The notes under the pieces are model-generated. The model made no database searches and was not told where the DNA came from. It was given only the letters and a program-made list of their open reading frames with translations. This document shows, piece by piece, positions 43,315 to 59,646 of a stretch of DNA of 64,000 nucleotides; within the stretch, counting starts at the first letter, position 1; every line of letters starts with the position of its first letter. The DNA comes from Curtobacterium sp. MCPF17_002. GTDB lineage: Bacteria; Actinomycetota; Actinomycetes; Actinomycetales; Microbacteriaceae. A program made the position numbers and the translations under genes. The stretch spans positions 2,170,001 to 2,234,000 of the forward strand of contig NZ_CP126251.1 of NCBI RefSeq assembly GCF_003234115.2, read 5' to 3'.

Positions 43315-45141
43315 TCACTGCACGAGGAAGAACTGCTCCCCGATGTCCACCCGGGCACCGCGCTCGACGCGGTACCGACGGCCGGGCTCACACCGACGGA
43401 TCGACCCGTCGATGTGCCGCACCACCGTGCCGTTGCCCGAGAACCGGTCGGAGACCCAGAGGTCGTCCCCGTCGCGGCCGAGCTCGATGTGGGTCTTCGA
43501 CACCGACTTGCCCGGGTCGTGGACGGTGAGCAGGTCGTCGAAGCGTTCGCCGGGCTGCGGGCGCGGGAGCCGCCCGACGAGTCCGGTGCCGTGGACGCCG
43601 AACCGCTCACCGGTGCTGAAGTGCAGCACGAAGGGGGCGTGCGTCGGGGTCTGCGAGACGATCCGGGTCTCCTCGACGTCGTCCTCGAGGTCACCGTCGG
43701 CGCTGGTCGGCGACCCGTCCGCAGCACCGGAGGGCTGCGCCGGACCGCTGACGCCCGGGACCGGTGGGAGCGGCGCGGCCGACGGGATGCTGACGGCGGC
43801 GGTGTCCTCGGCGGTCGGGGCAGAGGACGGCAGGGTCGCAGAGGCCGGCGTGTGCGGCGTCTGCGGCGCGTCGAGCGGGAGGACGTCGTCCACCGGCGCA
43901 GCGTGCACGCCACGGGGACGCAGCGGCACGCGTGGGGTGTCGTCGTCGACCGCAGGGTCGTCCTCGCGGGGAGCGGCGGCGGCGTCCGTGTCGTCCGCTT
44001 CGTCGGCCTCGTCGACCTCGTCGGCCTCGTCCACCTCGTCGATCTCCGCTTCAGCGTCAGCCTCAGCTTCAGCTTCAGCTTCAGCCGGGACGGAATCGTC
44101 GGCAGCCCAGTCGGGTCGGTCCATCGGCAGCGGCACGATCTGCCCGGTGAACGCCGCGGTGACGGCGGGCCGGACCGCGCCGCACTCACCGCAGAAGATG
44201 TCGTCGGGCTCGAGGCGGTGACCGCACACGTGGCAGATGGACGCCTGCGACCCCGGCGTCACGAGCGGCATCGGCCGAGGCGGACGCCGATCGACGAGGG
44301 GCTCGACCACGGCGGTGTCACCTGGTTGCGGCGGGGAGACGACACCCGGGGCATCGTTCGATGCGGTCGAGGCGTCTCGGCCGGAGTCGTCGGTGCCGTT
44401 CGTGCCGGCGGTGTTCGGACGTCCGACCCACCACGACGGCCCGGCGGGCGCAGCCGGGGGCGCCTGCTCCTGCGGCGGACTCCAGACCGGCAGGGTCTTG
44501 TCCGGCACGTCCGAGTCCGGCACGTCCGCGCCGAGTACGGCCGTGCTCGGTTCTGCGTCCGGCGACGCCTGGTCCGGATCGGCGTCGCCCTGCTGAGCAC
44601 TCGGTGCAGCGTCAGCTGCCCCGGGCTCCGTCGACTGCTCGACGAGGCGGGCCACTGACGGGTCCTCGGCTTCGGACGGGTAGGCGTCGGCGTCGAGCGG
44701 CCGTTTGGCGGGCGCCGACGGGTCCTCGTCGTCAGAGCGCGCATCCGGACCGGCGGGAGCGACAGGGGCCGACTGCTGCCCGGTCCAGTCCCGCAGGCCG
44801 GAACCGGCACCGTGCACGTGGGTGGGCGCGGATCGCGGCGCGTGGTCGTCGGGACGCTGTACCGGCACCGGTGCGGGCGGCTGGTCGTCGCGACGGTCGG
44901 CTCCTGTGAGCCAGGCACGCGTCGCCGGGTCGAGGGTCGCCTCGGGCAGCCACGCGTCGGCGGCGGGGTCGAGTCGGCGACCGTGCAGGTCCGGCTGCTG
45001 GAGCGGCGGCGGCGGAGCCTGCTCGACGGGCGTCCGCGCGACCGGTCGACGGTTCGCCCCAGCGGTCACCGCACGCCCGCACTCACCGCAGAAGATCGCT
45101 CCGTCCGGGAGCGTCGATCCGCAGTGTTCGCATCTGATCAC
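43315..45141 (-). CDS. zinc-ribbon and FHA domain protein
   Basis: 608 residues. Zinc ribbon 1 at Cys4, 7, 18 and 21; a long disordered acidic and Pro-rich region; a second zinc ribbon near residues 301-321 (CHVCGH and FCGECGA). Then a hexapeptide-like acidic stretch of E-A and D-E-A-D repeats, and a C-terminal FHA domain (about residues 505-600) with GLVGRLPRP, VSKTHIEL and GNGTVV. FHA domains bind phosphothreonine, so it is likely a scaffold read by the nearby kinase/phosphatase pair. DVEETRIVSQTP just before the FHA domain is a candidate phosphosite. Its GTG overlaps the transglutaminase-like gene stop. Confidence 0.88.
   Translation of the reverse strand: MIRCEHCGSTLPDGAIFCGECGRAVTAGANRRPVARTPVEQAPPPPLQQPDLHGRRLDPAADAWLPEATLDPATRAWLTGADRRDDQPPAPVPVQRPDDHAPRSAPTHVHGAGSGLRDWTGQQSAPVAPAGPDARSDDEDPSAPAKRPLDADAYPSEAEDPSVARLVEQSTEPGAADAAPSAQQGDADPDQASPDAEPSTAVLGADVPDSDVPDKTLPVWSPPQEQAPPAAPAGPSWWVGRPNTAGTNGTDDSGRDASTASNDAPGVVSPPQPGDTAVVEPLVDRRPPRPMPLVTPGSQASICHVCGHRLEPDDIFCGECGAVRPAVTAAFTGQIVPLPMDRPDWAADDSVPAEAEAEAEADAEAEIDEVDEADEVDEADEADDTDAAAAPREDDPAVDDDTPRVPLRPRGVHAAPVDDVLPLDAPQTPHTPASATLPSSAPTAEDTAAVSIPSAAPLPPVPGVSGPAQPSGAADGSPTSADGDLEDDVEETRIVSQTPTHAPFVLHFSTGERFGVHGTGLVGRLPRPQPGERFDDLLTVHDPGKSVSKTHIELGRDGDDLWVSDRFSGNGTVVRHIDGSIRRCEPGRRYRVERGARVDIGEQFFLVQ
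43988..44085. repeat. CCTCGTCGG / GCTTCA coding tandem repeats
   Basis: Runs of TCGGCCTCG-like nonamers followed by AGCTTC hexamers inside the zinc-ribbon FHA gene, encoding an acidic E-A / D-E-A-D low-complexity stretch. Confidence 0.7.
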
Positions 45142-47636
45142 GGGTGTCCTCTGTCCTCACTCGGCCGTCCACGACGCTCGCCGGCCTGCAAGCCATCGTA
45201 GTCACGAGCACCGGCCGGTCCCTGGCCGCGGGACGGTCGACGCCCCCTGCCACCCACCACGGCGGCCACCGAGGCGCCTGCCGTCCGCGACGTGTCGGCG
45301 ATGCGCAGCGACCGGAGGGAGACCGCCGCGCGCACCCGCTCCTTGCGGGTGCGTCCGGAGCGGAGGCTCGAGATGGCGTCGTCCGCGGCGGACCACATCC
45401 GGTCCGCGGTCGTGACGTCGGCGTCGTTCGGCCCGAACACGGACCGGTCCGCGAGCGCGGCGAGACCGCTGCCGCCCTCGCCGGGGGCACCGACGACGGT
45501 CTCGCGACGGGTCGCCGAGCGGTCCACGTCGTGCCCGCGGTCGACGAGCGCGTCGCGGTACTCGTCCCAGGCGCCCACGATGCGGCCCCGCGGCGTCGGA
45601 GCGCGTCGTCGCCGTCGTCGCCGGATCCGCTTGAGCAGCACGATGACGCCGAACGGCAGCAGGACGAGCGCGACGAAGCCGAGCGTCGCGAGCACCCACG
45701 GCAGCGCCGCGAGCAGGATCTGCAACCAGAGCGGTTGCACGGGCGGGGTGTCCCGGTCGCTCTGCGGCGGTGCCTGCTGCGACTGGTCCTGCTGCTCGGC
45801 GGGGGGCGGCGGCACGACGGTCTCCGGCCGGGTGACGGGCTGCGGCGTCTGCTGCTGCTCGTCGGGGATCTCGCGCACGGTCGGGTTCGGGTCGATCATG
45901 ACCCACCCCCACTGGGCGGTGTCGACCTCGACGCGGGCGGTCACGTCGGAACCCCGGAAGGTCGTGGTCCCGCCCGTGGTCGAGCCCGCGCCGGAGTCTC
46001 CCCCGGCGTCACCGCCGGCCGAGAACCCCATCACCACGCGCGCCGGGAACCCGAGCTGGTTCGCCATGAGCGCGACGGCCGCCGCGTACTGCTCCTGGTC
46101 CCCGATCATGATCGGGGACGTCAGGAGCTCCTGGATGCGGTCGGCACCGTGCCCGGATCGGCTCGCCCGGTCGTCGCCGACCCCGTGGCTCACGTAGCCG
46201 TTCCGCTTGAGCTCCTGCACCATCGCGACGAGCTTGGCGCCGTCGGTCTCGGCGTTGCCGCTGTACGCGTCGACCGTGTCGCGGACGGCGTCCGGCACGG
46301 AACGGGGCGTCGGGACGGAGGCGCTGCCCGGACGTGCGGACGCCAGCTCGTCGTCGGTCGGCTGGTCCGGCAGCACCGCCGTCAGGTCGTACCGGGTCCC
46401 GTCGGCGACGCCGCCGAGGACCGCGCCGGTGCCGGTCGAGCCGTTGTAGAAGAACGCTCCGCGCTCCTGGTCCGCGCCCGAACCGGTGAACTCGACCCGC
46501 TCGAGGTCTCCGACCGTCGGCAGCCACACCCCGCTGTAGCCCTGCACGGTCACACCGACCCGGACGGTGGTGCCGCGGACACCGCGGACGTCGACCGAGG
46601 TCGGCACCCGCTCGAAGGTGCCGGACGCCGTCGATCCGTCCGACCCGCCGACGCGGTAGACCACGCCGTCGTAGGTGTCGAGCGTCGCGATCCGCACGAA
46701 CCCGTCCGCGGGCAGACCGGTGACCCGCAGCTGTGCGGTGTCGGCCTCGGTCTGCTCCTCGTAGGCGCGGAAGCCGCTCAGCGGGCTGACGTAGTCCCGC
46801 GGGTCGAACGGCTTCACGACGTCGGTGCGCGCGACGGTCCGGCCCACCGTGGGCGGTGCGACGAGTCCGAGTCCGGTCGCGACGACGGCGGCCGCGACGA
46901 TGGTCCCGGTGCCGACGAGCGCCGGTCGCAGGACCGAGCGCGCGATCGGCACGCGGGACCCGATGGTGGTCGCCACCGCGGTCGCGCGTCGCGCGTGCCG
47001 CACGGTGAGCGCCCAGACGAGCGCGATCCCGGTGAGCGTGACGGCGGTCGCGATCGACGTGTCGAGACGGCTCGGCCCGATCACGACACCGGCTGCGAAG
47101 AGCACGAGCGCCGGGATGCTGGCGAGTTCCTGCCTGGAGGCGCGGGTCGCCACGCTCACGGCCGTCACCGTCGCGATGAGGAGCGTCACGAAGTACGGCA
47201 CGAGGAGCGATTCGTAGGACCCGACCGGCAGGCTGATGGTCACCAGCCGCTTCCAGCCGAGGGCGACGCCGGCGAACAGGTCGACGAGTCCCTGCCCGGT
47301 CGGCAGGATGCCGTTGGCCTGGCCCGGCACGGCCGCGGGGACGCCGGTGAGTGCGAACGCCGCGATCGTCGCGACCGCGATCACCGCCGTCGGCAGCCGG
47401 AACACCGCGCCGAGGAGGGCGACGAGTGTGCCGAAGACCACGGCGGTCACCGCGGCGACGATCATCGCGTCGTCGCGGTAGACGGGCCACCAGGCCGTGC
47501 TGGCGACCGCGAGGAGGAGCCACACCGCGAGGGTGCCGCCGACGAGCCGGGTCGGCGTGAGACGACGGGCCTCGCGGCGGGCGTCCCGACGCACGGTCTT
47601 CCTCGCCCGGGTGGCCGGGTCCGCTGCGACGCTCAC
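45138..47636 (-). CDS. TgpA-like transglutaminase-fold membrane protein, catalytic Cys replaced
   Basis: 832 residues. A block of seven to eight membrane helices (about residues 30-270), an extracellular transglutaminase-like domain (about 280-640), a further helix (about 655-680) and a cytoplasmic basic tail. At the normal GDCE active-site position the sequence is IGDQEQYAAAVALMANQLG (near residue 508), so the nucleophilic Cys is Gln. The usual HAW position reads TARVEV, and only the Asp (MIDPNP) is kept. A structural or binding role is therefore more likely than catalysis. GTGA overlaps at both ends couple it to the DUF58 and FHA genes. Confidence 0.87.
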   Translation of the reverse strand: MSVAADPATRARKTVRRDARREARRLTPTRLVGGTLAVWLLLAVASTAWWPVYRDDAMIVAAVTAVVFGTLVALLGAVFRLPTAVIAVATIAAFALTGVPAAVPGQANGILPTGQGLVDLFAGVALGWKRLVTISLPVGSYESLLVPYFVTLLIATVTAVSVATRASRQELASIPALVLFAAGVVIGPSRLDTSIATAVTLTGIALVWALTVRHARRATAVATTIGSRVPIARSVLRPALVGTGTIVAAAVVATGLGLVAPPTVGRTVARTDVVKPFDPRDYVSPLSGFRAYEEQTEADTAQLRVTGLPADGFVRIATLDTYDGVVYRVGGSDGSTASGTFERVPTSVDVRGVRGTTVRVGVTVQGYSGVWLPTVGDLERVEFTGSGADQERGAFFYNGSTGTGAVLGGVADGTRYDLTAVLPDQPTDDELASARPGSASVPTPRSVPDAVRDTVDAYSGNAETDGAKLVAMVQELKRNGYVSHGVGDDRASRSGHGADRIQELLTSPIMIGDQEQYAAAVALMANQLGFPARVVMGFSAGGDAGGDSGAGSTTGGTTTFRGSDVTARVEVDTAQWGWVMIDPNPTVREIPDEQQQTPQPVTRPETVVPPPPAEQQDQSQQAPPQSDRDTPPVQPLWLQILLAALPWVLATLGFVALVLLPFGVIVLLKRIRRRRRRRAPTPRGRIVGAWDEYRDALVDRGHDVDRSATRRETVVGAPGEGGSGLAALADRSVFGPNDADVTTADRMWSAADDAISSLRSGRTRKERVRAAVSLRSLRIADTSRTAGASVAAVVGGRGRRPSRGQGPAGARDYDGLQAGERRGRPSEDRGHP
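47132..47144 (+). repeat. dispersed 13-base motif, copy 4 (coding)
   Basis: GCCTGGAGGCGCG followed by GGTCGCC, identical over 20 bases to the copy at 6798-6817, but inside the transglutaminase-like gene where it encodes ATRASRQ. Confidence 0.55.
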
Positions 47637-49048
47637 GCTGCCGTCGCCGATCGGTGCAGCGCGTGGCGGAGGTCGTCGAGGTAGCCGATGGTCATCACGG
47701 TGAGTCCCGCGACGCGGAGGAACCGCGGCTGGGCCGACGGCTCGCAGATCACGGCGACGACCTCGACCCCGACGGGGAACCTGGTCGCGGCCAGCCGCAG
47801 TGCCGGCAGCTCGACGGTGGACCCGACGACGAGGAACGCGACCGAGATCCCGACGGTGTCGTTGCCGACGATGCTCGAGACCTCGGCGATCGGCAGGCAG
47901 GCGTCCGCGAGCCCGACCGACGCGAAGTCGTCGAGCAACCGCGTCGGGGTGACCGTCGGCAGCGGGTGCACGGCGTACACGGCGCGCTTGGCGAACTCCG
48001 GCGTTCGCTCGGACACGACGACGGTGACCTCGCGGCCGTCGCGGATCGCCCGCGTGCCGAGCGATGCCGCAGCGCTCACAGCGAGCTCGAACTCCTCGTC
48101 GTCGGCGAACTCGGCACGGGATATCCCGAGCGCGATCACGAGGTGGGACCGGCGGGTGTCCTCGAACTGCCGGACCATCAGCGCGCCGGACTTCGCCGTC
48201 GACTTCCAGTGGATCGTGCGGGGGTCGTCGCCCGGCATGTACTCGCGGATGGCGTGGAAGGCGATGTCCGACGGCGACAGGTCGGTCGTCGCCTGCCCCT
48301 CGAGATCGCGCACGAGACCGGTGCTCGTCGACGGGATCGCGATCGTCCGCGGGTGCACGATGACCTGCTCGCGGGCGGTCCAGACGACCTCACGGCGGAC
48401 GAGGCCGACCGGGTCCGCGCGGACGCCCGTCACCGGCCCGACGTCGAGCACCCCGCGGCGCACGGTCGGGACCGGCACCTCGCGCTCGAACGTGCCGTGC
48501 GGGCCGATCGACGGGATCGCGACGTCGACCAGACCCGAGCCGACCGGCACCTCCACCGTCGTCGGGACCGACGGCAGCCGCGCCGGGTTCTCGGCGGTGA
48601 CCACCACGCCCGCGGCGTCGCCGACGGCGACGCGGTGCTGGGGAAGCCGCATGCGGATGAGGAGTCGCGAGCGCCCGATCAGCGCGATCGCGGCCACGAC
48701 CACGAGCACCGCGCCCGCGAAGCCGACGACGACGACCTCGCGCAGTCCGAAGCGGTACCCCAGGACGAACGCGACGAGCGTGAGCGCGGCAACAGTCCAA
48801 CCCAGGCCGGTGACCACGGACGAGACCTCTGCCCACCCGCGCTTGACGAGCCTCCAGGCCGTGGCCCAGGCCCTGGCGAGACCGACGACTGCTTCCGCTG
48901 CCACGCCCTCGCGGTCACCGACCAGGCGCGTCCGGACGTTCGTCAGGCCGGCGACCGTCCCCGTGCGCTCGTACGCCGTCGTCCCGCGACGCGACCGCGT
49001 CGAGGACGGGCGGCGCGACCGCGTGGAGACGGGCCGGCGATCGGTCAC
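47633..49048 (-). CDS. DUF58 domain protein
   Basis: 471 residues. A basic, Ser/Thr/Arg-rich cytoplasmic N-terminus is followed by two close membrane helices (about residues 85-130) and a domain carrying the DUF58 signature (REYMPGDDPRTIHWKSTAKS). The C-terminal part has a von Willebrand A-like fold. DUF58 proteins are standard partners of MoxR ATPases and TgpA-like proteins, probably as substrates or adaptors of the chaperone. GTG start overlapping the moxR stop (GTGA). Confidence 0.9.
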   Translation of the reverse strand: MTDRRPVSTRSRRPSSTRSRRGTTAYERTGTVAGLTNVRTRLVGDREGVAAEAVVGLARAWATAWRLVKRGWAEVSSVVTGLGWTVAALTLVAFVLGYRFGLREVVVVGFAGAVLVVVAAIALIGRSRLLIRMRLPQHRVAVGDAAGVVVTAENPARLPSVPTTVEVPVGSGLVDVAIPSIGPHGTFEREVPVPTVRRGVLDVGPVTGVRADPVGLVRREVVWTAREQVIVHPRTIAIPSTSTGLVRDLEGQATTDLSPSDIAFHAIREYMPGDDPRTIHWKSTAKSGALMVRQFEDTRRSHLVIALGISRAEFADDEEFELAVSAAASLGTRAIRDGREVTVVVSERTPEFAKRAVYAVHPLPTVTPTRLLDDFASVGLADACLPIAEVSSIVGNDTVGISVAFLVVGSTVELPALRLAATRFPVGVEVVAVICEPSAQPRFLRVAGLTVMTIGYLDDLRHALHRSATAA

Positions 49049-50016
49049 GAGGCGGACCGGTCCGCCGGTGGCGGGGTCTCGACCAGCAGCTGCGCGATGA
49101 CGCTCGGGGCGCTGACGCCGTCGAACTCCGCCTCGGCGTCGAGCACCAGGCGGTGGGAGAGGATCGGCACCGCCAGGGCCTTCACGTCGTCGGGGGTGAC
49201 GTAGTGACGGTTGTTCAGGGCGGCGTACACCCGCGAGGCGCGCATGAGACCCATCGCGCCACGGACGCTGACGCCGAGGCGGACCTCGCTCGCCGAACGC
49301 GTGCCGTCGACCAGCCGCGCGACGTAGTCGGCGATCACCGGGTCGACGTGCACCGTCCGGGCGATCGCGGCCATCTCGGTGATCGTCGCGGCGGGCACCA
49401 CGCTCGCCAGCGGGACCGAACTCGACGGCGCGGACGCCGTCTCGAGGATCTTCACCGTCGCCGCGTGGTCCGGGTAGCCGATCGAGGCCTTCATGAGGAA
49501 GCGGTCGAGCTGCGCCTCGGGCAGACGGTACGTGCCGGCCTGCTCGATCGGGTTCTGCGTCGCGATGACCATGAACGGCGCGGCCAGCTTGTGGTTCACG
49601 CCGTCGACCGTGACGGCGGACTCCTCCATCGCCTCGAGGAGTGCCGACTGCGTCTTCGGGCTCGCACGGTTGATCTCGTCGGCGAGGACGATGTTCGAGA
49701 ACACCGGGCCGCGGTGGAAGTCGAACTCCTGGGTCTTCTGGTCGTACACGCTGATGCCGGTGATGTCGCCCGGCAGCAGGTCGGGCGTGAACTGGATGCG
49801 GTTCGTCGAGCCCTGCACGCTCTGGGCCATCGCCCGCGCGAGGCTCGTCTTGCCGGTGCCGGGGACGTCCTCGAGCAGGAGGTGTCCCTCGCTGAGCATC
49901 GCCGTGACCGCCAGGCGGATCACGAACGTCTTCCCGAGGAGCACCTGCTCGACGTTGGTCACGATGCGGCCTGCGACGTCGGCGAACCAGGTGGCCTGCT
50001 CCGGGGTCATGCTCAT
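49045..50016 (-). CDS. MoxR family AAA+ ATPase
   Basis: 323 residues. Walker A EDVPGTGKTSL (residues 49-59), Walker B LADEINRASPKTQSALLEAM, sensor 1 ATQNPIEQAGTYRLPEAQLDRF, and a C-terminal lid domain. MoxR proteins are chaperone-like ATPases that mature or remodel partner complexes containing von Willebrand A-type domains. GAGGAAC Shine-Dalgarno. 69 bases after the giant Ig-like gene, with no hairpin between, so it is likely the same transcript. Confidence 0.93.
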   Translation of the reverse strand: MSMTPEQATWFADVAGRIVTNVEQVLLGKTFVIRLAVTAMLSEGHLLLEDVPGTGKTSLARAMAQSVQGSTNRIQFTPDLLPGDITGISVYDQKTQEFDFHRGPVFSNIVLADEINRASPKTQSALLEAMEESAVTVDGVNHKLAAPFMVIATQNPIEQAGTYRLPEAQLDRFLMKASIGYPDHAATVKILETASAPSSSVPLASVVPAATITEMAAIARTVHVDPVIADYVARLVDGTRSASEVRLGVSVRGAMGLMRASRVYAALNNRHYVTPDDVKALAVPILSHRLVLDAEAEFDGVSAPSVIAQLLVETPPPADRSAS

Positions 50017-50085
50017 GCGGTGTCGTTCCTCGTTCTCGGGGATGGCGTTGGGGGCAGCGTACGGTCAGCGGGCGACGGAGCGGCG

Positions 50086-53000
50086 CTACTCGCTCGGCGA
50101 GGGGTCGGACGGCTGGGACGGCTCGGGGTCCGGCTCCGGTGCCGGGGTCACCGCGACGGCGTCCGAGAGATCACCCGTCGTGGTGAGGGTTGCACCATTG
50201 CCCAACGAGAGGGTCACGGTTGCCTGAACCCGGACAGAGCCCGACAGCAGAGGCGGATTCGGCGGGTCCTCGGACGAATCCCACGTCTGAGGCACAGAAA
50301 TGCCGGAACCGTCGTCCGACCCGTACCACCGCGCCGTGTACTGCACCGAGACACCAGCACCGGACGGGCCGCTGACCGAGATCGCGGAACCTTGTTTGGC
50401 CGCGACGACCGAAGCAGTTGCGTCGAGCGCTGCTGCACGCACCAGTTTCGACTGGCCGTCCTGGGTGCAGAACGATGACCCCGGTCCACCGCAGGCACGG
50501 AGCGTCACGGTCACCGGTACGTTCCGGGCGCCGTCTCCGGGCACGCCGCTCCACGACTGGCCCGGCTGCAGCGTCACGGTGGAGCCGCCGGTCTCGAGCT
50601 GGTAGTGGTCGACCTGCGTCCGCGGCGCGGTGACGACGGCGTTGGGGCGGCTCGTGCTGTTCGAGGTCAGCGACACCGACGGGTCATCCGTGCCGTCAGG
50701 ACGCTGGTACGCGGTCGTCTCGGCGTACTGGACGTTGCAGAAGTACCCGTTCGACACGGTGACCGCGAACGTCCGCTTCCCGCCACCCACGCCGGTCACG
50801 GTGGTCGGGCTCGACGAACCGAGCGAGCCGCCCGACGGGTTGTTGCAGTCGACGCTGCCGGACTGGAACACGCCGTAGCTGGTGGACGGGCCGCCAGCGG
50901 CGTCAGCAGCACCCCAGGTGACGGTCACGACGGACCTGCCGGTTCCGTCGTCGTTGTTCCCCACGTTCGCCGAGACGTTGGCCGGCTTGCTGGGCACGCC
51001 GACGGCGCTCCCCGTCGCGGACGCGGTGTTCCACTGCACGACGGTACCGTTGCGGTCGGCGGCGTTCCTCGGCGAGATGGTGACCTTGTACTGCGCCGCG
51101 CTCTGGGCGCCGGTGAACGAGGCGCTCGTCGCGGTGCCCGTGCTCCGCGTCGCGGACAGGCCGGGGCCCTCGATCGTCACGACGTAGTTGTTCACCGCGG
51201 TGCCGTTGTTCGGGGCGTCGACCTTGTCCCAGTCGACGTCGAGCTGGTTCGGCGTGCTCGTGCTCGGGCTGACGGTGATGCCCTTCGGCGGCGCCGGCAC
51301 GAAGTCGGCGCTCACGGGCGAGGACTCGGCCGACGCCTTCGAGTCGCCGACGGCGTTCGTCGCGACGACGCTGAACCGGTACGACGCCTTCGGGTCGAGG
51401 CCCGTGATCGTGCACACGGTCGCGGTCCCGCAGTCCTTCGAGACACCGTTCGTGCCCTCGATGCGGTAGCCCGTGATCGGCGAGTTGTTCGCCTGCGGGG
51501 TCGCCCACGTCAGGGTCGCCTGACCGCCTTCGTAGGACCCGGTCCGGCTCGGGGCGCCCGGGGCGTCGGGGACGTCCTGCACCGAGATCGTCACGTCGCC
51601 CCACACGTACCGGTCGGGGTCGTCGGTGGCGTCGGCGACCTGGTACTGCAGGTGGGTGTCGACGGGCTTCGCGTTGTCAGAGACGCTCACCTGCAGGCGG
51701 GACCGGTCGGCGCTGGGCGTGACGGTGACGCCACCGGGCAGGCCGCCGGAGAGCCCGCGGATGTTCACGACCCGGAGCCGCTGCTCGGGGAACGGGTTCG
51801 TCGGCTGGTCGTTCTGGAGGACGTCGATGGTGGTGGTCGCGCCACGCTTCGTCACCGACTTGTCGGCCCCGGGCTGCACGAGCGGCCGGGTGGACGCGAC
51901 CACGTCCACCGCGATCGAGCCCGAGCGGCCGGCGTTCGCGTCGTCGGCGACCCCGATGCCGATGGTGGCGGTGGTGTTCTTCTTCGCCGTGTCGGAGACC
52001 TTGACCGTCAGCTCCTGGCCGGAGATCGTCGCGGTGGTGCCGTCGCTCGGGCGGCTGACCACGGAGTACCGGAGCTCGGGCAGGTCCTTCGGGTACGGGT
52101 AGTCGGTCAGCTTCGTGAGGTCGATGGTGCGCGACTCCCCCGGCTGCATGTCGACCGCCGACCCGGTGAACGCGGGCGGCTGGTTCGAGCGCGGGGTGAC
52201 CTTGATCGGCAGCACGAGCGTCGCGACGCGTCCCTTGCCGCCGTTCGCGTTCGAGCCGTCGGTGACCTCGAACGAGATCGACGCGTTGCCGTAGTAGAGC
52301 TTCGACGACGTGAACTGCAGCGTCGAGGCGTCGACGACCAGGTCCTGCCCGTTCGCGTGGGTCGCCTTCACGGTGCCGTCGTCGGTGACCTTCGCGGTCT
52401 GCCCGTTCGCCGTGACGACGTACTTCGACAGCGGGATGTGGACCGTCGCCTCGCTCTTCACGCTGATCGCACCGGCGGTCCGGTTGACCTGCGGCAGGGC
52501 GTCGTCGAACCCGGGGACGTGGATGAAGCCGTAGGACACGATGTCCGGGTGGTCGGCGCGGGCGACCGAGAACGGGATCACCTGCGACTCGTCGGTCAGC
52601 CGGACGGCGATGCGCTGGTCGTCGGTGGCGCGGGCGGTGTCGCCGTAGCCGTCGACGACGCCGACGCGCAGGTCGGCGGCGGTGCCCTCGGCGAAGAAGA
52701 CGTTGTCGAGCACGTCCACCGTGACGCTCTGCCGGTGCATGATGTCCTGCAGGTCGAGCGTCGTGTCGTCGACCTCGGGGCGGAGCGGCTGTGCGTCCTC
52801 GTCGACGGTGACGGTGAGGAACGCGGTGCTCGCACCACCGTTCTCGTTCGCCACGGTGTACAGCACGGCGTAGTCGCCGGACTTCGCGGACTTCGGCGGC
52901 GTGACCCGGATCTGCTGCTTCTGCAGGACCTTCGCGGTGACGTCCTGCGCGGTGGGCTCCGCCTTCGTGACGGTGAGCTGGCCGCCCTCGGGGTCGGAGT

Positions 53001-55956
53001 CGTTCTGCAGGACGCGGACGGTCACGGAGCCACCGGGCCGGATCGTGACGTGGTCGGCTTCGGCCACCGGGTTCGACGCCTGCTCGGCGCGCGGCGCGAT
53101 CCCGACGCGGACGGTGCCGGTCGCGCGGGCGCCCAGTGCGTCGACGACGGTGTACGTGAACTCGTCGGTGCCGGCCGAGTAGTCGCCGGCCTCGTACGTC
53201 AGCGAGTCGGAGGCGACGTCGCTCACCGAACCCTTGTCGGGGTTCGAGGCGACGCCGACCAGCTGCACGGAGTCACCGTCGGGGTCGATGCCGTTCAGCG
53301 GGATCGACACCCGGACGGACTGCCCCGCGACGACCCGCGCCGTGACGGTCTGCGGGACGGGCGGGTTGTTCGTGGCGGCGTCCTGCTCGCGGACGGAGAT
53401 CGACACGGTGGCGTCGGCGTACTGCCCGTCCGGCCCGGCGACGCGGTAGACGGCGGTGTAGTTGCCCGGGGTGGTCGGCGCGAGGTACCGGAGGTGGTCA
53501 CCCGAGGCGAAGAGCAGGCCGCCGTCGCCGGGGACGTTCTGGACGAGGTCCGGCTGCAGGGTGAGCGGTTCGCCCTCGGGCTGCGTGTCGTTGTCGAGCA
53601 CGTCGATGTTCGCGACGTCGCCGACGCGGACGGTGGCCGTGTCCGGCTGCGCGACGGGCGGCTGGATCCGGTCGGGCTTCGGGATCTCGACGACCGTGAC
53701 CGTTCCGGTGGCGGACGCGAGGCCGTTCGTCTCGGTGTACCCGAACGAGACGGGCCCGTCGAGCGGCGCGGTGAGCGTCACCCGGACGGTGTGCTGGTCG
53801 AGGATGCTCGCCTGCACGCCGGAGCCGCGGTCGGGTCCGTCGAGCGCCGTCACGAGGAGGACGCCGCCAGCCGGGTCGATGTCGGTCGCCGTGACGTCGG
53901 TGTCCTTGGTGGACAGGGTGTTGACGAAGACGGTCTTCGGCGTGGTGATCGGCGCACTGGAGGCGTCCGGCGGAGCGAGGATCGTGATGCGGACGATGCC
54001 GCTCGAGGTCTTGGTGCCGTCGGTGACGGTGTACTCGAGCTGGTGGTCGCCCGCGCTCGCCCCCTGCACGCGGAAGGTGCCGGCGTCGTAGCTCGGGGTC
54101 ACGGTCAGTCCCGCCGCCGACGAGACGCTGGTGAGCGTGACGGTGCCGTTGCCGCCACGGACGTGGTCGAGCGGGTCGACCGTGAAGGCCTTCCCCGCGT
54201 AGCCCTGCACGGGGAACGGGTCGGCGTAGAGCGGGACGCTGCCCTGCTTCGCGACGTGCACCGTGACCGAGCCACGCCCGTCGGCACGGCCGTCGCTGAC
54301 GACGAGCTGCACCGCGCGGTCGCCGGTCTTCCCGCTCGCGTTCCGGAAGTCGAGCAGCCCGTCCGGCGTCGTCGACACGCGGTCGCCGTCCGCTCCGCTC
54401 GCCGACTTCAGGTAGACCGGGTCCCCGTCGGGGTCGACCCAGTCGCCGAGCACGTTCGCCACCACGTGGCCGTTCTGCACCACGTCGGCGGAGGTGTCGC
54501 GCACCTGCCGTGGTGGGTCGTTCGCCGAGTCTGGCCGGACGGTCACCCGGACCGTCGCGGTGTCGGATCCCCCGTTGCCGTCGGTGATCGTGTACGGGAA
54601 CGAGACCGTGCCCGTCGCGCCGCCCGACAACGTGATCTGCAGGCGCTGGCCGTCGCCGACGATCGCGACGTCGCCGACGGCGTCGTCGACCTTCCCGACC
54701 TCGCTGATGACGATCGGGTCCCCGTTGGGGTCGTAGTCGTTGAGCAGGACCGGGAGGCTCGTGGTGCGTCCCGGACGAGCGCCCAGGTCGTCGTCGACCG
54801 CGACCGGCGGCTTCTGGTCCTTGTCGACCTCCGGGTCGTCGTCGGACACCTGCTCCTGCTGCTGGTCGTCGTCCTTCTTGATGAGGTCGGCCCAGTTGTC
54901 GATGACCTGGCCGCTGCGGTCGATCGCCCAGGAGCGCCCGCTCTGCGGGTCGTTCGCGACGACGGTCTCCCCGTTGTGCAGGATCTGCAGCTCGCCCGTA
55001 CCGGCGGTGTCCGCGAGCCGCTGCAGTCCGTTGCCCTTGCAGGTGTCCACGGCCTGGCCGCCGGCCCAGGCCGCGTACGTGCACGATCCGACGACGGCCG
55101 GCCGTGCAGCGCGACCGGAGACCTGGAGCGCGGTGGTGTCGACTGCGCCGGACGCCGAGACGCGGACGAGTCCGGCCGTGCCGGCGACGGTCACGTCGGA
55201 CGCGTCGTCCGCCGATCGCTGGAGGGACGGCGAGGTCCCGACGCGGTCGCCGAGGTCGACGGTGTCGCCGTCGACCGAGATCTCCCCCGAGCTCCGGTCG
55301 AGCACGGCGACGTGGTCGCCGAACGACGCCACCTGGAAGTCGTCCGCCCGGTCCATCTTCACGGTCCACCGCGCGTCGACCGTCAGGGTGGTGCCGACGT
55401 CGACGAGCGACGCGGTGCCGGTCTTCGGCGAGTACACGGCGACGTGGTCGTCCGAGGCGTCGAAGACCGCGTCGGCGCCGAGCGTCAGGTCCGCCTTCGT
55501 CGAGGCGTCGAACTCGCCGAGGTCCTTCGCCGGGGTCGCCCACAGCTCGCCCGTGTCGGCGTTGCCGATGATCGCGGTCGAACCGGCGAAGAAGACCTGG
55601 GGCGAACCCGCCGGCAGGGTCACCGGGTCGGCGACGGTGGCGTCGGCGACGTCGACCTTCGCCACGGTCCCCTTGGTCTCGTCGACGCTGTAGACCATCG
55701 ATCCGCGCTGCAGCACGGACAAGCTGTCGCTCGCGGTCTCGACCGCCGTGTTGAGCTGGAGGACGCCGGTGTTCGCGCGGCCGACGGCACCGTACTCGGC
55801 CGACGGCACCCACACCGTGCCGTCGCCGAGGTCGACGCGCTGCGTGTGGTAGCCGGTGGAGGCGACCGCCGCGGTGGCGACGACCGCACCGACGAGGACC
55901 GAGGCCCCCACCGTGACCGCTGCGGACCGGTGCTTCGCCAGGAACGCCCGGATCAC
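50086..55956 (-). CDS. giant extracellular protein: propeller-like head, 11 Ig-like repeats, FN3 tail
   Basis: 1956 residues. A single N-terminal membrane helix (about 10-33, SAAVTVGASVLVGAVVATAA) acts as signal anchor. Residues 40-365 show repeated short strands like a beta-propeller, followed by an acidic DDDQQQEQVSDDD linker. Residues 385-1460 hold 11 Ig/cadherin-like repeats, several with Ca-binding-type DPDGD or NDxDPxG motifs. Residues 1465-1850 hold FN3-like domains (YRIEGTNG, YRFSVVATNAVG) and the end is a Pro/Glu/Ser tail. Start at GTG 55956, where GTGA overlaps the kinase stop; the frame opens eight codons earlier. It is likely a surface fibre or receptor working with the kinase. 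Confidence 0.85.
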   Translation of the reverse strand: MIRAFLAKHRSAAVTVGASVLVGAVVATAAVASTGYHTQRVDLGDGTVWVPSAEYGAVGRANTGVLQLNTAVETASDSLSVLQRGSMVYSVDETKGTVAKVDVADATVADPVTLPAGSPQVFFAGSTAIIGNADTGELWATPAKDLGEFDASTKADLTLGADAVFDASDDHVAVYSPKTGTASLVDVGTTLTVDARWTVKMDRADDFQVASFGDHVAVLDRSSGEISVDGDTVDLGDRVGTSPSLQRSADDASDVTVAGTAGLVRVSASGAVDTTALQVSGRAARPAVVGSCTYAAWAGGQAVDTCKGNGLQRLADTAGTGELQILHNGETVVANDPQSGRSWAIDRSGQVIDNWADLIKKDDDQQQEQVSDDDPEVDKDQKPPVAVDDDLGARPGRTTSLPVLLNDYDPNGDPIVISEVGKVDDAVGDVAIVGDGQRLQITLSGGATGTVSFPYTITDGNGGSDTATVRVTVRPDSANDPPRQVRDTSADVVQNGHVVANVLGDWVDPDGDPVYLKSASGADGDRVSTTPDGLLDFRNASGKTGDRAVQLVVSDGRADGRGSVTVHVAKQGSVPLYADPFPVQGYAGKAFTVDPLDHVRGGNGTVTLTSVSSAAGLTVTPSYDAGTFRVQGASAGDHQLEYTVTDGTKTSSGIVRITILAPPDASSAPITTPKTVFVNTLSTKDTDVTATDIDPAGGVLLVTALDGPDRGSGVQASILDQHTVRVTLTAPLDGPVSFGYTETNGLASATGTVTVVEIPKPDRIQPPVAQPDTATVRVGDVANIDVLDNDTQPEGEPLTLQPDLVQNVPGDGGLLFASGDHLRYLAPTTPGNYTAVYRVAGPDGQYADATVSISVREQDAATNNPPVPQTVTARVVAGQSVRVSIPLNGIDPDGDSVQLVGVASNPDKGSVSDVASDSLTYEAGDYSAGTDEFTYTVVDALGARATGTVRVGIAPRAEQASNPVAEADHVTIRPGGSVTVRVLQNDSDPEGGQLTVTKAEPTAQDVTAKVLQKQQIRVTPPKSAKSGDYAVLYTVANENGGASTAFLTVTVDEDAQPLRPEVDDTTLDLQDIMHRQSVTVDVLDNVFFAEGTAADLRVGVVDGYGDTARATDDQRIAVRLTDESQVIPFSVARADHPDIVSYGFIHVPGFDDALPQVNRTAGAISVKSEATVHIPLSKYVVTANGQTAKVTDDGTVKATHANGQDLVVDASTLQFTSSKLYYGNASISFEVTDGSNANGGKGRVATLVLPIKVTPRSNQPPAFTGSAVDMQPGESRTIDLTKLTDYPYPKDLPELRYSVVSRPSDGTTATISGQELTVKVSDTAKKNTTATIGIGVADDANAGRSGSIAVDVVASTRPLVQPGADKSVTKRGATTTIDVLQNDQPTNPFPEQRLRVVNIRGLSGGLPGGVTVTPSADRSRLQVSVSDNAKPVDTHLQYQVADATDDPDRYVWGDVTISVQDVPDAPGAPSRTGSYEGGQATLTWATPQANNSPITGYRIEGTNGVSKDCGTATVCTITGLDPKASYRFSVVATNAVGDSKASAESSPVSADFVPAPPKGITVSPSTSTPNQLDVDWDKVDAPNNGTAVNNYVVTIEGPGLSATRSTGTATSASFTGAQSAAQYKVTISPRNAADRNGTVVQWNTASATGSAVGVPSKPANVSANVGNNDDGTGRSVVTVTWGAADAAGGPSTSYGVFQSGSVDCNNPSGGSLGSSSPTTVTGVGGGKRTFAVTVSNGYFCNVQYAETTAYQRPDGTDDPSVSLTSNSTSRPNAVVTAPRTQVDHYQLETGGSTVTLQPGQSWSGVPGDGARNVPVTVTLRACGGPGSSFCTQDGQSKLVRAAALDATASVVAAKQGSAISVSGPSGAGVSVQYTARWYGSDDGSGISVPQTWDSSEDPPNPPLLSGSVRVQATVTLSLGNGATLTTTGDLSDAVAVTPAPEPDPEPSQPSDPSPSE

Positions 55957-57365
55957 CCGGTGCTCCCGATCGTCGCGCACTTCTGGGCGCTGGCGACCCC
56001 GGTCTTGCCGTCACGGTTCACGGCGACGGCGATGCACTCCTCGTCGCCCTTCTTGCCGGAGACGACGAAGCTCGTTCCCGTCTGCTGGCTCGCGGCGCCG
56101 TTGGACGAGATCACGTAGGTGTCGCCGTTCCCGAGGCCCGGGTCGGCCCAGGTGAAGGTCACCGAGGCCGGGGTGGTCTCCGCGCGGACGTCTGACACCA
56201 CGGGGATCGCCCCCGCGCCGAGACGCCCGACGACCACCACCGTGGCGATGGCGAGGGCCGCGACGACGACGACCGTCAGCGAGGTCGCCCAGACGAGCGT
56301 CGATCGCGACCGACGACGAGCGCGTGTGACCGAGCCCGTGCGGTGGACGGTCCCGACGCTCTGCGAGGCCGCAGCGGACGAACCGCCCACCACGGCCTTC
56401 CGGGTGCGACGGCGTGCGCCGACCCGGGACGGCGGCTGGAGCTCGCGGATCATGGTGCGGTCGCCGTCCGGGGTCGGTGTGGCCACCGCCCAGGCCTCGA
56501 CGGCGACGTCCGCAGCGGTCTGCGGGATGCCGAGCTCGGCCTCGACCTGCTGCAACCCGCGCACGAGCCCCATCACGGTCGACGGGCGTCCGGCGACCTT
56601 GCGGGACATGGCCGCGGCGAGCAGGCGTTCGAGGGACGGCGGCACGTCGGTCCGGCCGGTCGGCTTCACGCCGCCCTTGTCGATGCGCCCCATCAGGTCG
56701 GCCGCGCCGTTCTTGCCGCCGCGGACCTCGAACGGGCTCCGTCCGGCGAGCAGGGAGTAGACGGTCGCTGCGAGCGAGTAGACCTCGGACTGGATGGTGC
56801 CGCGGGACTCGTCGATGAGGACCTCGGGTGCCGACCACGGGATCGACATGCCGATGGGTTCGTCCGGGTCGGCCTCGCCGATCGTGGCCGCGATGCCGAA
56901 GTCGGAGAGCACCGGGTTGCCGTACGCCGTCAGCAGGATGTTGGACGGCTTGATGTCGCGGTGGAGGACGCCTTCGCGGTGTGCCGTCTCGAGCGCGGAC
57001 CCGATGCGGATGCCGATCGAGAGGACTTCCGACACCGGGATCGGTTCGCGCCGGTACCGCTCGCTGAGCGACGAGGAGCAGAGCTCCATCACGAGGTAGG
57101 GGCGCCCGTCGGAGGCCACGCTCGCCTGGAAGACGGTGAGGATGGACGGGTGCGTGCTGAGGCGCGCCATGAGGTTGGCCTCGGCCTGGAACATCTGCCG
57201 GACGCGGTCGTCGACGACCTCGTCGAGCAGGACCTTCACGGCGACCTGGCGGCGCGGCATGTCCTGCTCGTAGAGGAAGACGTCGGCGAAGCCACCAGAA
57301 CCGAGGACGTGCACGGGGCTGAACCCGCCGATCACGGGCGGGCTGGACGGCAGGCGTCGCGCCAT
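55953..57365 (-). CDS. receptor-like Ser/Thr protein kinase with extracellular FN3-like domain
   Basis: 470 residues. Gly-rich loop LGSGGFADVF (21-30), VAVKVL Lys44, HRDIKPSNILL Asp137, DFGIA 155-159. The activation segment reads DEPIGMSIPWSAPE, without the paired threonines usual in Hanks-type kinases. A cytoplasmic linker contains GDRTMIRELQ. One membrane helix (355-380) is followed by an 85-residue extracellular FN3-like domain with two cysteines (about 444 and 463) that could form a disulfide. ATG with GGGGAGGAGGG upstream. The stop overlaps the giant gene start, suggesting that kinase and surface protein act together. Confidence 0.9.
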   Translation of the reverse strand: MARRLPSSPPVIGGFSPVHVLGSGGFADVFLYEQDMPRRQVAVKVLLDEVVDDRVRQMFQAEANLMARLSTHPSILTVFQASVASDGRPYLVMELCSSSLSERYRREPIPVSEVLSIGIRIGSALETAHREGVLHRDIKPSNILLTAYGNPVLSDFGIAATIGEADPDEPIGMSIPWSAPEVLIDESRGTIQSEVYSLAATVYSLLAGRSPFEVRGGKNGAADLMGRIDKGGVKPTGRTDVPPSLERLLAAAMSRKVAGRPSTVMGLVRGLQQVEAELGIPQTAADVAVEAWAVATPTPDGDRTMIRELQPPSRVGARRRTRKAVVGGSSAAASQSVGTVHRTGSVTRARRRSRSTLVWATSLTVVVVAALAIATVVVVGRLGAGAIPVVSDVRAETTPASVTFTWADPGLGNGDTYVISSNGAASQQTGTSFVVSGKKGDEECIAVAVNRDGKTGVASAQKCATIGSTG

Positions 57366-57415
57366 CGTGCCCTCCTCCCCGGCCGAGCGGCCAGCTCTCT
57401 CGTCACGGCCATGCC

Positions 57416-57446
57416 ATTGTACGAACCGTGGGTGACCGACGTTCCG
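57416..57446 (-). promoter_or_regulatory. candidate promoter of the kinase operon
   Basis: TACAAT at 57421-57416 is a near-consensus -10 box in the 130-base gap before the kinase. No good sigma-70 -35 is present. GGAAC at 57446-57442, 17 bases before CGTAC, matches the shape of ECF-sigma promoters instead. Confidence 0.4.
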
Positions 57447-57475
57447 CACACCGATGCGCACGGATGCCCATCGCT

Positions 57476-57490
57476 CCCCCAGTTCGGGGG
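57476..57490 (-). terminator. short hairpin after the PP2C gene
   Basis: CCCCC-AGTTC-GGGGG directly after the PP2C stop. A five-base stem only, so termination would be partial. Confidence 0.35.
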
Positions 57491-57495
57491 GTCAC

Positions 57496-58317
57496 TCAGT
57501 GGCGCGGGAGCGTGTCCTCGACGTCGCCGTCGACGGGTGCGGCGTCGACCTGCAGCACGACCACCGTCACGTTGTCGCGTCCGCCCGCGACGACCGCGTC
57601 GCCGACGAGTCGCTCGGCGAGCTCCTGCGCGCCCGGCACCCGCGCGGCGATCCGACCGATGCCGACGTCGCCGAGTTCCTTCGTGAGACCGTCGGAGCAG
57701 ACGATGTAGCGGTCCCCCGCCCGGAGCGGGAGGGTCCACCAGTCGGGCTCCGGCGGTTCGCCGAACCCGACGGCGCGGGTGATCACGTTGCTGTCCGGGT
57801 GGCGCTCGGCGTCCTCTGCACGGAGGAGCCCGGCGTCGACCATCTCCTGGACGACCGAGTGGTCCACCGTGACGCGACGCAGCACGCCGCCCTCGATGCG
57901 GTAGGTGCGCGAGTCCCCGACGTTGAAGACGAGCGCCGCCGGCTGGCCGTGCGCCGCGACGAGGGCGATCCCGGTCACCGTCGTGCCCGCGCCGATCGCG
58001 TTGCCCCCGGCGGCCCGCTCGATGTCCGCGGTGGCCAGCAGGAGCGCACGCTGGATCGACTGCCGCGTCGTGAAGGCGCTCTCGGTGGCCTGCTCGAGCC
58101 GGCGGACGACTGCGTCGCTCGCGCGGTCACCCGCGAGGTGCCCGCCCATGCCGTCGGCGACGACGAAGAACGGCGCACCGATGATGTAGCTGTCCTCGTT
58201 GTGGTCACGCCGACGACCGATGTCGGTCGCCGCCCCCCAGGTGAGCGTCAGGGTGGCGCCGTCGGCACCGGGGACGTCGATGGCGTGCGCAGTCGCTGCT
58301 CGGCCGAGTTCGGTCAC
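57496..58317 (-). CDS. PP2C-type Ser/Thr protein phosphatase
   Basis: 273 residues, soluble. The metal-binding and catalytic motifs are complete: RRDHNEDSY, VADGMGGHLAGD, GTTVTGIAL, FNVGDSRTYRI, CSDGLTKEL and GGRDNVTVVVLQ. It probably reverses phosphorylation by the neighbouring kinase. The C-terminus GDVEDTLPRH carries an acidic-Thr motif like those in the adjacent FHA protein. GTG start three bases after the FHA stop. Confidence 0.93.
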   Translation of the reverse strand: MTELGRAATAHAIDVPGADGATLTLTWGAATDIGRRRDHNEDSYIIGAPFFVVADGMGGHLAGDRASDAVVRRLEQATESAFTTRQSIQRALLLATADIERAAGGNAIGAGTTVTGIALVAAHGQPAALVFNVGDSRTYRIEGGVLRRVTVDHSVVQEMVDAGLLRAEDAERHPDSNVITRAVGFGEPPEPDWWTLPLRAGDRYIVCSDGLTKELGDVGIGRIAARVPGAQELAERLVGDAVVAGGRDNVTVVVLQVDAAPVDGDVEDTLPRH

Positions 58318-58320
58318 GTT

Positions 58321-59037
58321 TCAGGATCGCTCTCTGGGGGTTCGGGGCGGACCAGCTGGTGGATCGGAGGGCCACGCGGGAAGCGGAGGGAGGTCGTCCG
58401 CCGACGGTGCGACCCGCAGGTGCGGCGAGAGGACCTCGATCACGTTGCCGTCACCGATCTCGACAACCGTACCCGTCAGCACGACGTTCGACGCACCTGC
58501 GGGCATCCGGAACGGTGCCGCGCCCGCCGGACGCACCACGGTGCCGTTGGTCGATCGGAGGTCGTCGACGACGGCGGCTTCGCCCTCGGCGTGCACCAGC
58601 ACGTGCGATGAGGACACCTGGCCACTCGCCGACGGCACGGTCACGAGTTCGGGAACCGGCCCCCGCACCATCCGTGGCAGCGCCGGCCGCCGCCCGATGA
58701 TGACGGGGTGGTCGAGTCGGAGCACCCGGTCACCGATGCGGATGGACGGCACCCTGGTCGTCACCCCGATCGGCGCGGTCGGGTCGGTCGGGTCGGTCGG
58801 GTCGGACTGGAGGCGCGGTGCGGCTCCGTCAGGACCCGCACCCTCGGCACGGGGCGGCCTGGGCACCCGCACGACGGTGTCCTCGGTCGCGGACGTGTCG
58901 GGCCGGGCCTGTGGACGGATCACTGTGTCACCGAGCGCATCGTCCATGCGATCGCCCGAGAGCGGCGCGCGCGGTCGACGGACGACGGTGTCGTCGATGT
59001 CGTCGTCGCGCACTCGAGCCCTCCAAGCGTGGTCCAC
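58321..59037 (-). CDS. FHA domain protein with three repeated DTVVR motifs
   Basis: 238 residues. Three near-identical threonine motifs precede the FHA domain: DDTVVR (Thr17), GDTVIR (Thr38) and EDTVVR (Thr54). The domain itself (about residues 105-215) has VIIGRRP, SSSHVLVH, DLRSTNGTVV. Acidic-T-x-V/I-R resembles the N-terminal phosphothreonine motif of GarA/OdhI. The protein may therefore be phosphorylated by the nearby kinase and bind itself or partners through FHA. DPTDPTDPT is a short additional repeat. First gene of the cluster, three bases before PP2C. Confidence 0.88.
   Translation of the reverse strand: MDHAWRARVRDDDIDDTVVRRPRAPLSGDRMDDALGDTVIRPQARPDTSATEDTVVRVPRPPRAEGAGPDGAAPRLQSDPTDPTDPTAPIGVTTRVPSIRIGDRVLRLDHPVIIGRRPALPRMVRGPVPELVTVPSASGQVSSSHVLVHAEGEAAVVDDLRSTNGTVVRPAGAAPFRMPAGASNVVLTGTVVEIGDGNVIEVLSPHLRVAPSADDLPPLPAWPSDPPAGPPRTPRERS
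58807..58817 (+). repeat. dispersed motif, 11-base core copy (coding)
   Basis: CTGGAGGCGCG inside the FHA gene, where it encodes PRLQ on the minus strand. Confidence 0.4.
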
Positions 59038-59067: not shown

Positions 59068-59625
59068 TCATCGACGCTCCCACGAGGGTGCACTGCCGGC
59101 CCGCACCGACCGCAGCACGAGGCCGGCGAGCGGATCGTCCCCCCGGGTCTCGAGCGCGTACTGCGCCCGGGTCTGCGCGCGCGCCACCGACCCGAGCGCC
59201 CACGAGCACCACGACGCCATCGCCAGCGCCCCGGCCGCCCCGGTGGCGGTGTCGGCGGGCAGGTCCTCGGCACGCCACCACTGCCAGGCCTCGGCGCACC
59301 GGTCTCCCGCGACCCGCACGCGGTCCCGGTCGGGCTCCGGCCCGAAGCCGCGCAACGCCGGCGGCGTCGGGTCGTGGAACGGGTCGAAGGCCGCGACGGT
59401 CCGGGCGTCGGGTTCGTCACGGGCGGCGACGAACGCGAGCAGCGCGAACCGCGGCGCGAGCGCACCACAGGCGGTGAGCACGGCGATCCCGGCGGTCCGC
59501 GGCAGCGGACCCGTTCCGTCCGCGACGAGTGCGGCGCACGCCGCGGGGAGGGTGACGGCAGCCGCGATCTCGCGCGGGTACCGGACTGCGGCTTCGGGGT
59601 GGACTCGTGTCGTCACGGGGATCAT
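59068..59625 (-). CDS. DUF4192-like protein, short form
   Basis: 185 residues from MIPVTTRV; two ATGs upstream (59634 and 59676) are alternatives. AEAWQWWRAEDLPAD and GALAMASWCSWALGSVARAQTRAQYAL match the C-terminal half of DUF4192 proteins. The longer N-terminal half usual in the family is missing, so this is a short variant or a truncated remnant that is still open. Function unknown. 30 bases upstream of the FHA gene, same strand. Confidence 0.6.
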   Translation of the reverse strand: MIPVTTRVHPEAAVRYPREIAAAVTLPAACAALVADGTGPLPRTAGIAVLTACGALAPRFALLAFVAARDEPDARTVAAFDPFHDPTPPALRGFGPEPDRDRVRVAGDRCAEAWQWWRAEDLPADTATGAAGALAMASWCSWALGSVARAQTRAQYALETRGDDPLAGLVLRSVRAGSAPSWERR

Positions 59626-59646
59626 GCACGCCATCGAAACGCACCA

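Follow-up and report, generated by a model that had tools for sequence, protein, structure and literature searches.

Gene content and organisation of the cluster

The 64,000-nucleotide stretch analysed here (the window) covers positions 2,170,001 to 2,234,000 of contig NZ_CP126251.1 of Curtobacterium sp. MCPF17_002, the single contig of a 3.82 Mb assembly, and contains a cluster of eight open reading frames (ORFs), all on the minus strand, at 43315-59037 (Table 1). Judged by sequences and structure models, the cluster is an operon of the PFNA type, described previously in Bifidobacterium. A membrane-anchored propeller/Ig/FN3 protein of unusual size (the giant) accompanies a MoxR ATPase, a DUF58 protein and a polytopic protein of the TgpA fold without the catalytic cysteine, and alongside this core stand a receptor kinase with intact motifs, a PP2C phosphatase and two FHA proteins with GarA-like threonine motifs.

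The ORF list and the Pfam domains bear out the eight co-directional genes of the first-pass annotation, which had been made from the letters of the window. Pfam assigned PP2C_2 to the phosphatase, Pkinase to the kinase, Big_9 (six stretches), cadherin-like and fn3 domains to the giant, AAA_3/AAA_lid_2 to MoxR, DUF58 to its namesake, TgpA_N and Transglut_core to TgpA, and a zinc ribbon (two stretches) and FHA to the last protein, FHA2; the FHA match of the first, FHA1, scored 20.1 bits, slightly below the cut-off of 20.7. No NCBIfam model matched the DUF58, TgpA or FHA2 proteins at E <= 0.001. The four-base overlaps announced at four junctions all read GTGA: kinase/giant (55953-55956), moxR/DUF58 (49045-49048), DUF58/tgpA (47633-47636) and tgpA/FHA (45138-45141). 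The remaining three intergenic gaps are 3, 34 and 69 bp long. The length of 1956 residues given for the giant is correct with the GTG start at 55956. The ORFs were delimited from stop to stop, and their outer N-terminal ends may hold untranslated sequence. A scan for promoters and terminators returned 0 and 2 sites, respectively, not above shuffled sequences.

Table 1. Genes and features of the cluster, with positions in the window
Feature	Position	Strand	Basis
FHA1, FHA protein; DTVVR/DTVIR motifs repeated in the N-terminus	58321..59037	-	Pfam, motif reading
FHA1 T17 codon, [DE]xTx[VIL]	58987..58989	-	motif
FHA1 T54 codon, also matches [DE]xTx[VIL]	58876-58878	-	motif
PP2C phosphatase, intact metal-binding motifs	57496..58317	-	Pfam, alignment
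Ser/Thr kinase; one transmembrane segment, putative FN3-like ectodomain with two conserved Cys	55953..57461	-	Pfam, alignment
Kinase T336 codon, between kinase domain and transmembrane segment, [DE]xTx[VIL]	56454..56456	-	motif
Kinase transmembrane segment, approximate	56226..56297	-	hydropathy
Giant surface protein, 1956 residues from overlapping GTG at 55956	50086..55980	-	ORF, Pfam
Giant N-terminal membrane helix, model residues 20-41	55858..55923	-	AlphaFold2, transmembrane reading
Giant predicted beta-propeller, putatively on the outer side by topology, model residues about 55-360	54901..55818	-	AlphaFold2 pLDDT 87, Foldseek
Giant Ig-like/cadherin-like stalk, Big_9 stretches; boundaries judged by eye	51661..54810	-	Pfam
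Giant FN3 domain	51319..51525	-	Pfam
MoxR AAA+ ATPase, Walker A and B intact	49045..50016	-	Pfam, alignment
DUF58 protein, first MIDAS Asp not conserved	47633..49048	-	Pfam, alignment
TgpA-like membrane protein, pseudo-transglutaminase domain	45138..47636	-	Pfam, alignment, fold match
TgpA Q514 codon, catalytic Cys position	46095..46097	-	alignment
TgpA T566 codon, catalytic His position	45939..45941	-	alignment
FHA2; two zinc ribbons, long linker, FHA at the C-terminus	43315..45141	-	Pfam
FHA2 T492 codon, EETRIV motif ahead of the FHA fold, GarA-like placement	43666..43668	-	motif

Conservation and distribution of the gene set

In the family survey of 120 genomes, DUF58 matches were found in 106, and the N-terminal 380 residues of the giant were matched in 91, all within those 106. 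The 14 genomes without DUF58 are all <= 1.8 Mb in size; some larger genomes (e.g. G016, G097, G039, G066 and G100) gave weak DUF58 matches only, which may represent paralogues. Sixty family stretches were taken, 53 through a giant match and seven through DUF58 where the giant search had missed. All seven carry a giant, the first search having been too insensitive there. The giant, MoxR, DUF58 and TgpA genes, hereafter the core, are contiguous in 59 of the 60 stretches, and L047 contains a lone giant.

At the order level, TgpA matches occurred in 91 of 149 genomes, and 40 stretches were taken. All 33 with stronger matches (L068-L100) contain a giant, and 28 have the uninterrupted core order; in the exceptions, an FHA gene lies between DUF58 and TgpA (L083), no MoxR is labelled between giant and DUF58 (L085 and L093), the giant follows TgpA (L089) or MoxR stands at the cluster head (L097). 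Among the seven weak-match stretches, the core is present in L103, and no giant is labelled in the other six. A scan of named sequences, with the best 80 of 93 confirmed matches, left 77 loci, nearly all from Bifidobacterium, plus Actinotalea and Cellulomonas; the core was found in 70, some of the others being cut by contig ends. At the class level, DUF58 was matched at E <= 1e-30 in 33 of 196 genomes, and 16 stretches were taken. All nine loci from the outside family f40 have the core, six of them with an opposite-strand kinase; a short giant match was obtained in L266, L267, L271 and the cut L272, and no giant was labelled in L268-L270.

Altogether, the core order is contiguous in 89 of the 103 loci including the window, a count that refers to loci chosen by matches to cluster genes. 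Eight of the 14 others are giant-less (L066 and L067, fetched for contrast, and the weak matches L101, L102 and L104-L107). Chance clustering is therefore rejected, the 70 named loci and the nine f40 loci agreeing with this, and the proposal of a single conserved cluster is upheld. Giant and TgpA occur together in 168 loci of the two main sets; co-directional DUF58 was present in all 168, MoxR in 164, the kinase in 149 and PP2C in 105. Within the fetched stretches of the 89 core loci, a kinase was found in 84, PP2C in 60, an FHA gene in 82 and all three in 57. Since the four core genes rarely part while the kinase, PP2C and FHA genes shift, the set is a core with a separable regulatory phospho-module usually, but not always, alongside. 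The close tie of the surface protein to MoxR, DUF58 and TgpA suggested by the first-pass annotation thus stands; its refuting condition, independent gain and loss of the kinase/FHA genes and the MoxR/DUF58/giant genes, gave a mixed outcome, the four core genes rarely parting and the kinase, PP2C and FHA genes changing place and strand.

The giant surface protein

An AlphaFold2 model of residues 1-385 of the giant, built with 40 sequences (pLDDT 87, pTM 0.78), contains a helix at residues 20-41 and strands at 55-360. Foldseek matched beta-propellers, headed by the archaeal surface-layer YVTN propeller 1l0q (E 7e-10) and followed by AztD, BamB and NirF. Since the query TM-scores of the best 50 matches range from 0.30 to 0.56, the modelled region can be assigned firmly to the beta-propeller class but not to a given number of blades. 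Among the best 120 of 212 matches of the giant, the nearest named proteins come from Curtobacterium.

The first-pass annotation presented the giant as a surface fibre. A sortase-anchored fibre was rejected: among 172 giants of at least 1500 residues, an LPxTG-like C-end was found in two and a C-terminal transmembrane segment in none, and the window giant, ending in PSQPSDPSPSE, has neither of these marks of surface adhesins. Instead, the protein is anchored through its N-terminus, in an orientation that would probably place the propeller outside.

Short propeller-FN3 proteins were found in two 7-Mb genomes (L267:10045-12921 and L271:10066-12759). Their open frames of 959 and 898 residues comprise a hydrophobic helix, a propeller-matching region, fn3 (four stretches) and a C-end without a Pfam match; no Big_9 match was obtained with Pfam. 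MoxR and DUF58 come after each of them, then a TgpA in which GTSEQF occupies the Cys position. Because these short giants have no Big_9, the Ig stalk looks like an insertion into a smaller membrane propeller-FN3 protein, the opposite possibility being stalk loss. L053 and L051 have tandem giants (three and two, respectively) ahead of one MoxR-DUF58-TgpA set, and no kinase is labelled in their 20 kb stretches.

TgpA, MoxR and DUF58

The window TgpA has the transglutaminase fold, but the positions of the Cys-His-Asp triad hold Q514, T566 and D582. The catalytic Cys is absent from all 92 alignable giant-linked copies of 94 (L052 and L053, where the gene is cut by the end of the stretch, were left out), and the column holds A 30, D 28, Q 12, E 11, S 6 and G 5. 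The MoxR-DUF58-TgpA trio itself is shared with a second, giant-less trio of the same genome (L066), which differs in that its TgpA keeps Cys and His. The window protein likewise differs from Pseudomonas aeruginosa TgpA (6g49/6g4h) in lacking the catalytic Cys and His and in belonging to a larger gene set. The designation as transglutaminase-like is right for the fold only.

An active TgpA cross-linking or cleaving the giant is extremely improbable. The Transglut_core match (E 3.4e-9) and the TgpA fold would suit such an enzyme, as would the P. aeruginosa protein, for which the available text reports a conserved triad and an activity test (PMC3507681), but this candidate was rejected on Q514 and T566 at the catalytic positions and on the 92 copies, none with Cys and ten with His.

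Single TgpA and DUF58 sequences found no match among PDB sequences with phmmer; the TgpA profile, unlike the single sequence, did. Erythrocyte protein 4.2, a dead transglutaminase serving as a scaffold, has its structures among the matches listed for the window TgpA fold. In the passages covered of the openly searchable literature, PFNA papers included, no mention was found of the propeller, of the missing Cys or of the threonine motif discussed below, and among the listed papers on inactive bacterial transglutaminase-like proteins none was found that treats this TgpA. An ORF with a TIR-like start, a transmembrane segment and WD-type repeats, read by eye (L102:6915-9821), directly precedes a giant-less, Cys-less MoxR-DUF58-TgpA set, and a link to conflict systems is possible there.

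In MoxR, Walker A (one position variable) and Walker B are kept in 60 of 60 sequences. From the giant to the MoxR core, the median distance is 719 bp among the named loci, most of them bifidobacterial, and 91 bp in the survey set, which includes a few bifidobacteria; this fits a real long MoxR extension in bifidobacteria. The first MIDAS Asp of DUF58 is lost in 54 of 60 sequences. Two same-genome paralogues, read by eye, keep this Asp yet also have no DxSxS, which makes MIDAS loss a weak defining trait. Two further MoxR-DUF58 loci lie in the window's genome: L066, with the intact TgpA, and L067, with a 410-residue upstream ORF and no TgpA labelled.

A conflict (anti-phage or suicide) system akin to the MoxR-vWA-beta-propeller ternary systems would account for a propeller next to a MoxR that exceeds the bpMoxR cut-off of Pfam (35 vs 27 bits; AAA_3 scores 214.6 bits in the same protein), and some vWA domains of those systems also have no MIDAS aspartates, according to the partial description available (PMC7159879). 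It is nevertheless very improbable: the window propeller belongs to a separate membrane protein, behind a transmembrane helix and putatively outside, and no effector domain occurs among the Pfam matches of the window proteins. With PADLOC, the kinase drew broad kinase-family matches, MoxR and PP2C drew weak ones and the other five proteins none, and a defence system was rejected on this outcome.

The phosphorylation proteins and their threonine motif

The write-erase-read set proposed in the first-pass annotation is complete in the alignments. The kinase Lys, HRD and DFG-Asp are kept in 58 of 58 sequences, PP2C D55, D209 and D248 in 44 of 44 (the NED motif in 43, with one gap), and the FHA pattern GR..S..H is present in 78 of 80 FHA1 and 112 of 113 FHA2 proteins. 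The kinase has one transmembrane segment. Its ectodomain may be FN3-like, the signal being weak per sequence: fn3 was matched in three of 20 sequences (best E 0.0046), the window's own piece giving no match, and the ectodomain profile drew many weak PDB matches to FN3-fold proteins (best E 0.0094).

The motif [DE]xTx[VIL] is frequent in four regions. There were 153 occurrences in bifidobacterial MoxR extensions (63 of 69 extensions; 11.5 expected from shuffles), 63 in FHA1 N-termini (41 of 73 proteins; 13.3 expected), 92 in FHA2 linkers (82 of 112; 17.6) and 65 in kinase linkers (52 of 87; 17.1), counts that are inflated by sequence relatedness and set against shuffle values that are not probabilities. 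The MoxR set excludes four non-bifidobacterial named loci and extensions shorter than 60 residues; FHA proteins were left out if GR..S..H was unclear or the N-terminus too short, which left 73 of 80 FHA1 and 112 of 113 FHA2, and the kinase set, from survey loci only, omits kinases whose HRD could not be located or whose linker was short. None of the four sets was enriched in the Ser or basic control motifs, and the reversed motif reached at most 16 against 11.5. Elsewhere in these stretches, the motif occurred 221 times in 339 ORFs (211 expected), and in 49 non-cluster FHA N-termini nine times (7.4 expected). At FHA1 T38 there is an acidic residue at -1 only. Juxtamembrane copies were also observed in non-cluster Ser/Thr kinases of the same genomes (L215-L244), possibly as a general FHA docking site.

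The ETTS site of GarA is followed by Val. It lies in the N-terminal extension ahead of the FHA domain, according to the available text (PMC5448819), and FHA2 resembles the GarA/OdhI switch in its acidic-x-Thr-x-hydrophobic motif N-terminal of the FHA domain, 78 of 100 sites lying 25-45 residues ahead of the FHA GR. The window FHA proteins differ in being zinc-ribbon or short proteins within an envelope gene set.

Relation to the PFNA operon and proposed function

The first-pass annotation regarded the function of the gene set as not established, but a PFNA literature on bifidobacteria exists. As far as the available parts of these papers go, the operon comprises pkb2, fn3, aaa-atp, duf58 and tgm in this order, with prpC, a hypothetical gene and fha optional (PMC8430577, PMC6803598, PMC10688814); co-transcription and phosphorylation of MoxR by the kinase Pkb2 are published for B. 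longum, and the FN3 protein is said to occur in Bifidobacterium only (PMC10688814). The window has the same five genes contiguous, in the same order and direction, with a transmembrane kinase and a giant with a transmembrane helix and an fn3 domain, and profiles of the window family find the bifidobacterial genes. It differs in that FHA and PP2C genes precede the kinase, another FHA gene, encoding zinc ribbons, closes the row and MoxR lacks the long extension; the gene set also reaches beyond Bifidobacterium.

Published accounts, as far as available, treat the bifidobacterial operon as a sensor of host cytokines, equipped with a transglutaminase and with an FN3 protein restricted to bifidobacteria. 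The FN3 protein would then be an adhesin and cytokine receptor signalling via the kinase, and binding of TNF-alpha by FN3 fragments, induction by TNF-alpha, adhesion of B. bifidum and positive selection are cited for it (PMC8430577, PMC10688814, PMC12607495, PMC6803598). As the general function, this is improbable: the core is found widely in a family that has Curtobacterium, Agromyces, Leifsonia and soil metagenomes among its named relatives, and occurs also in Actinotalea and Cellulomonas. These bacteria are mostly not animal commensals. Host binding would then have been added later, in gut lineages.

Taken together, the observations speak for an envelope machine, with a dead-enzyme clamp and a phospho-switch, rather than for a host sensor, an active enzyme or a defence system, and our tentative preference, at a little less than even chances, is that the PFNA-type operon acts as such a phospho-regulated machine. 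The kinase would sense an outer signal, probably including the state of the giant, and would phosphorylate the motif threonines on the FHA proteins and on itself, and in bifidobacteria on MoxR too. FHA docking or GarA-like self-binding would set where and when MoxR/DUF58 act; MoxR would remodel the membrane complex of TgpA and the giant, the pseudo-transglutaminase being a binding clamp and not an enzyme, and PP2C would reset the circuit. The original role would concern the cell's own envelope, not the host immune system.

Besides the choice of loci and the inflation of motif counts, several points weigh against this envelope machine. The contacts between its parts, the order of events and the signal are all what we infer. 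The window MoxR has no long N-terminal extension, and ten of 92 TgpA copies retain the His. Ser stands in the Cys column in 6 of 92 survey copies and in 74 of 77 named copies (the latter biased, these loci having been found partly by a pattern containing that Ser), and could in principle act as a nucleophile. TgpA of L101, L102, L104 and L268 has no Cys and no giant is labelled there; the tie between Cys loss and the giant is therefore not strict. The stretches fetched for the core loci L051, L053, L071, L082 and L103 and for the short-giant loci L267 and L271 yielded no kinase, and the kinase, PP2C and FHA genes are mobile between loci. In 23 non-cluster kinase linkers, mostly of one genus, the motif occurred 23 times against 3.0 expected; in kinases it is therefore general and failed as a mark of this cluster only.

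The same mobility (genes moved, on the other strand as in six of nine f40 loci, or not found nearby) and the general kinase-linker motif would suit a pair of functional units with no tie beyond their position, an assembly unit of MoxR, DUF58, TgpA and giant and a general set of kinase, PP2C and FHA. This is a serious alternative but rather unlikely, given a kinase within the fetched stretch of 84 of 89 core loci, the kinase/giant overlap in the window, and the threonine motif on bifidobacterial MoxR, the published Pkb2 substrate. As a whole, the first-pass interpretation of one machine at the cell surface is partly supported.

A more specific form of the envelope machine, unlikely as it stands, draws on the Lap system, in which, as far as the available text goes, a transglutaminase-fold protein also adjoins a giant surface protein but LapG is an active protease under cyclic di-GMP control (LapG/LapD). 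By analogy, inside-out control of a Gram-positive surface protein might run in reverse: the dead TgpA transglutaminase would clamp the giant's propeller at the membrane uncut, its grip set by a MoxR/DUF58 motor gated by kinase, PP2C and FHA, with a GarA-like threonine switch on the FHA proteins in most lineages surveyed and moved onto MoxR in bifidobacteria.

The survey widens the PFNA set to further actinobacteria and makes it common in a family of mostly environmental bacteria; the set has a transglutaminase fold without nucleophile and a giant with a probable propeller head. The focus shifts from host immunity to envelope biology, non-pathogenic models are on offer, and the threonines and the dead active site named here are directly testable.

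Neighbouring genes

Upstream of the cluster, on the same strand, genes for an ATP synthase alpha/beta-type subunit and a gamma subunit lie at 60767-63171. Between them and FHA1, the ORFs 59068-59676 and 59622-60728 have no Pfam match at 0.001. On the other side, overlapping opposite-strand ORFs at 40840-42576 (-) and 40843-42378 (+) gave OsmC and asparaginase II matches.
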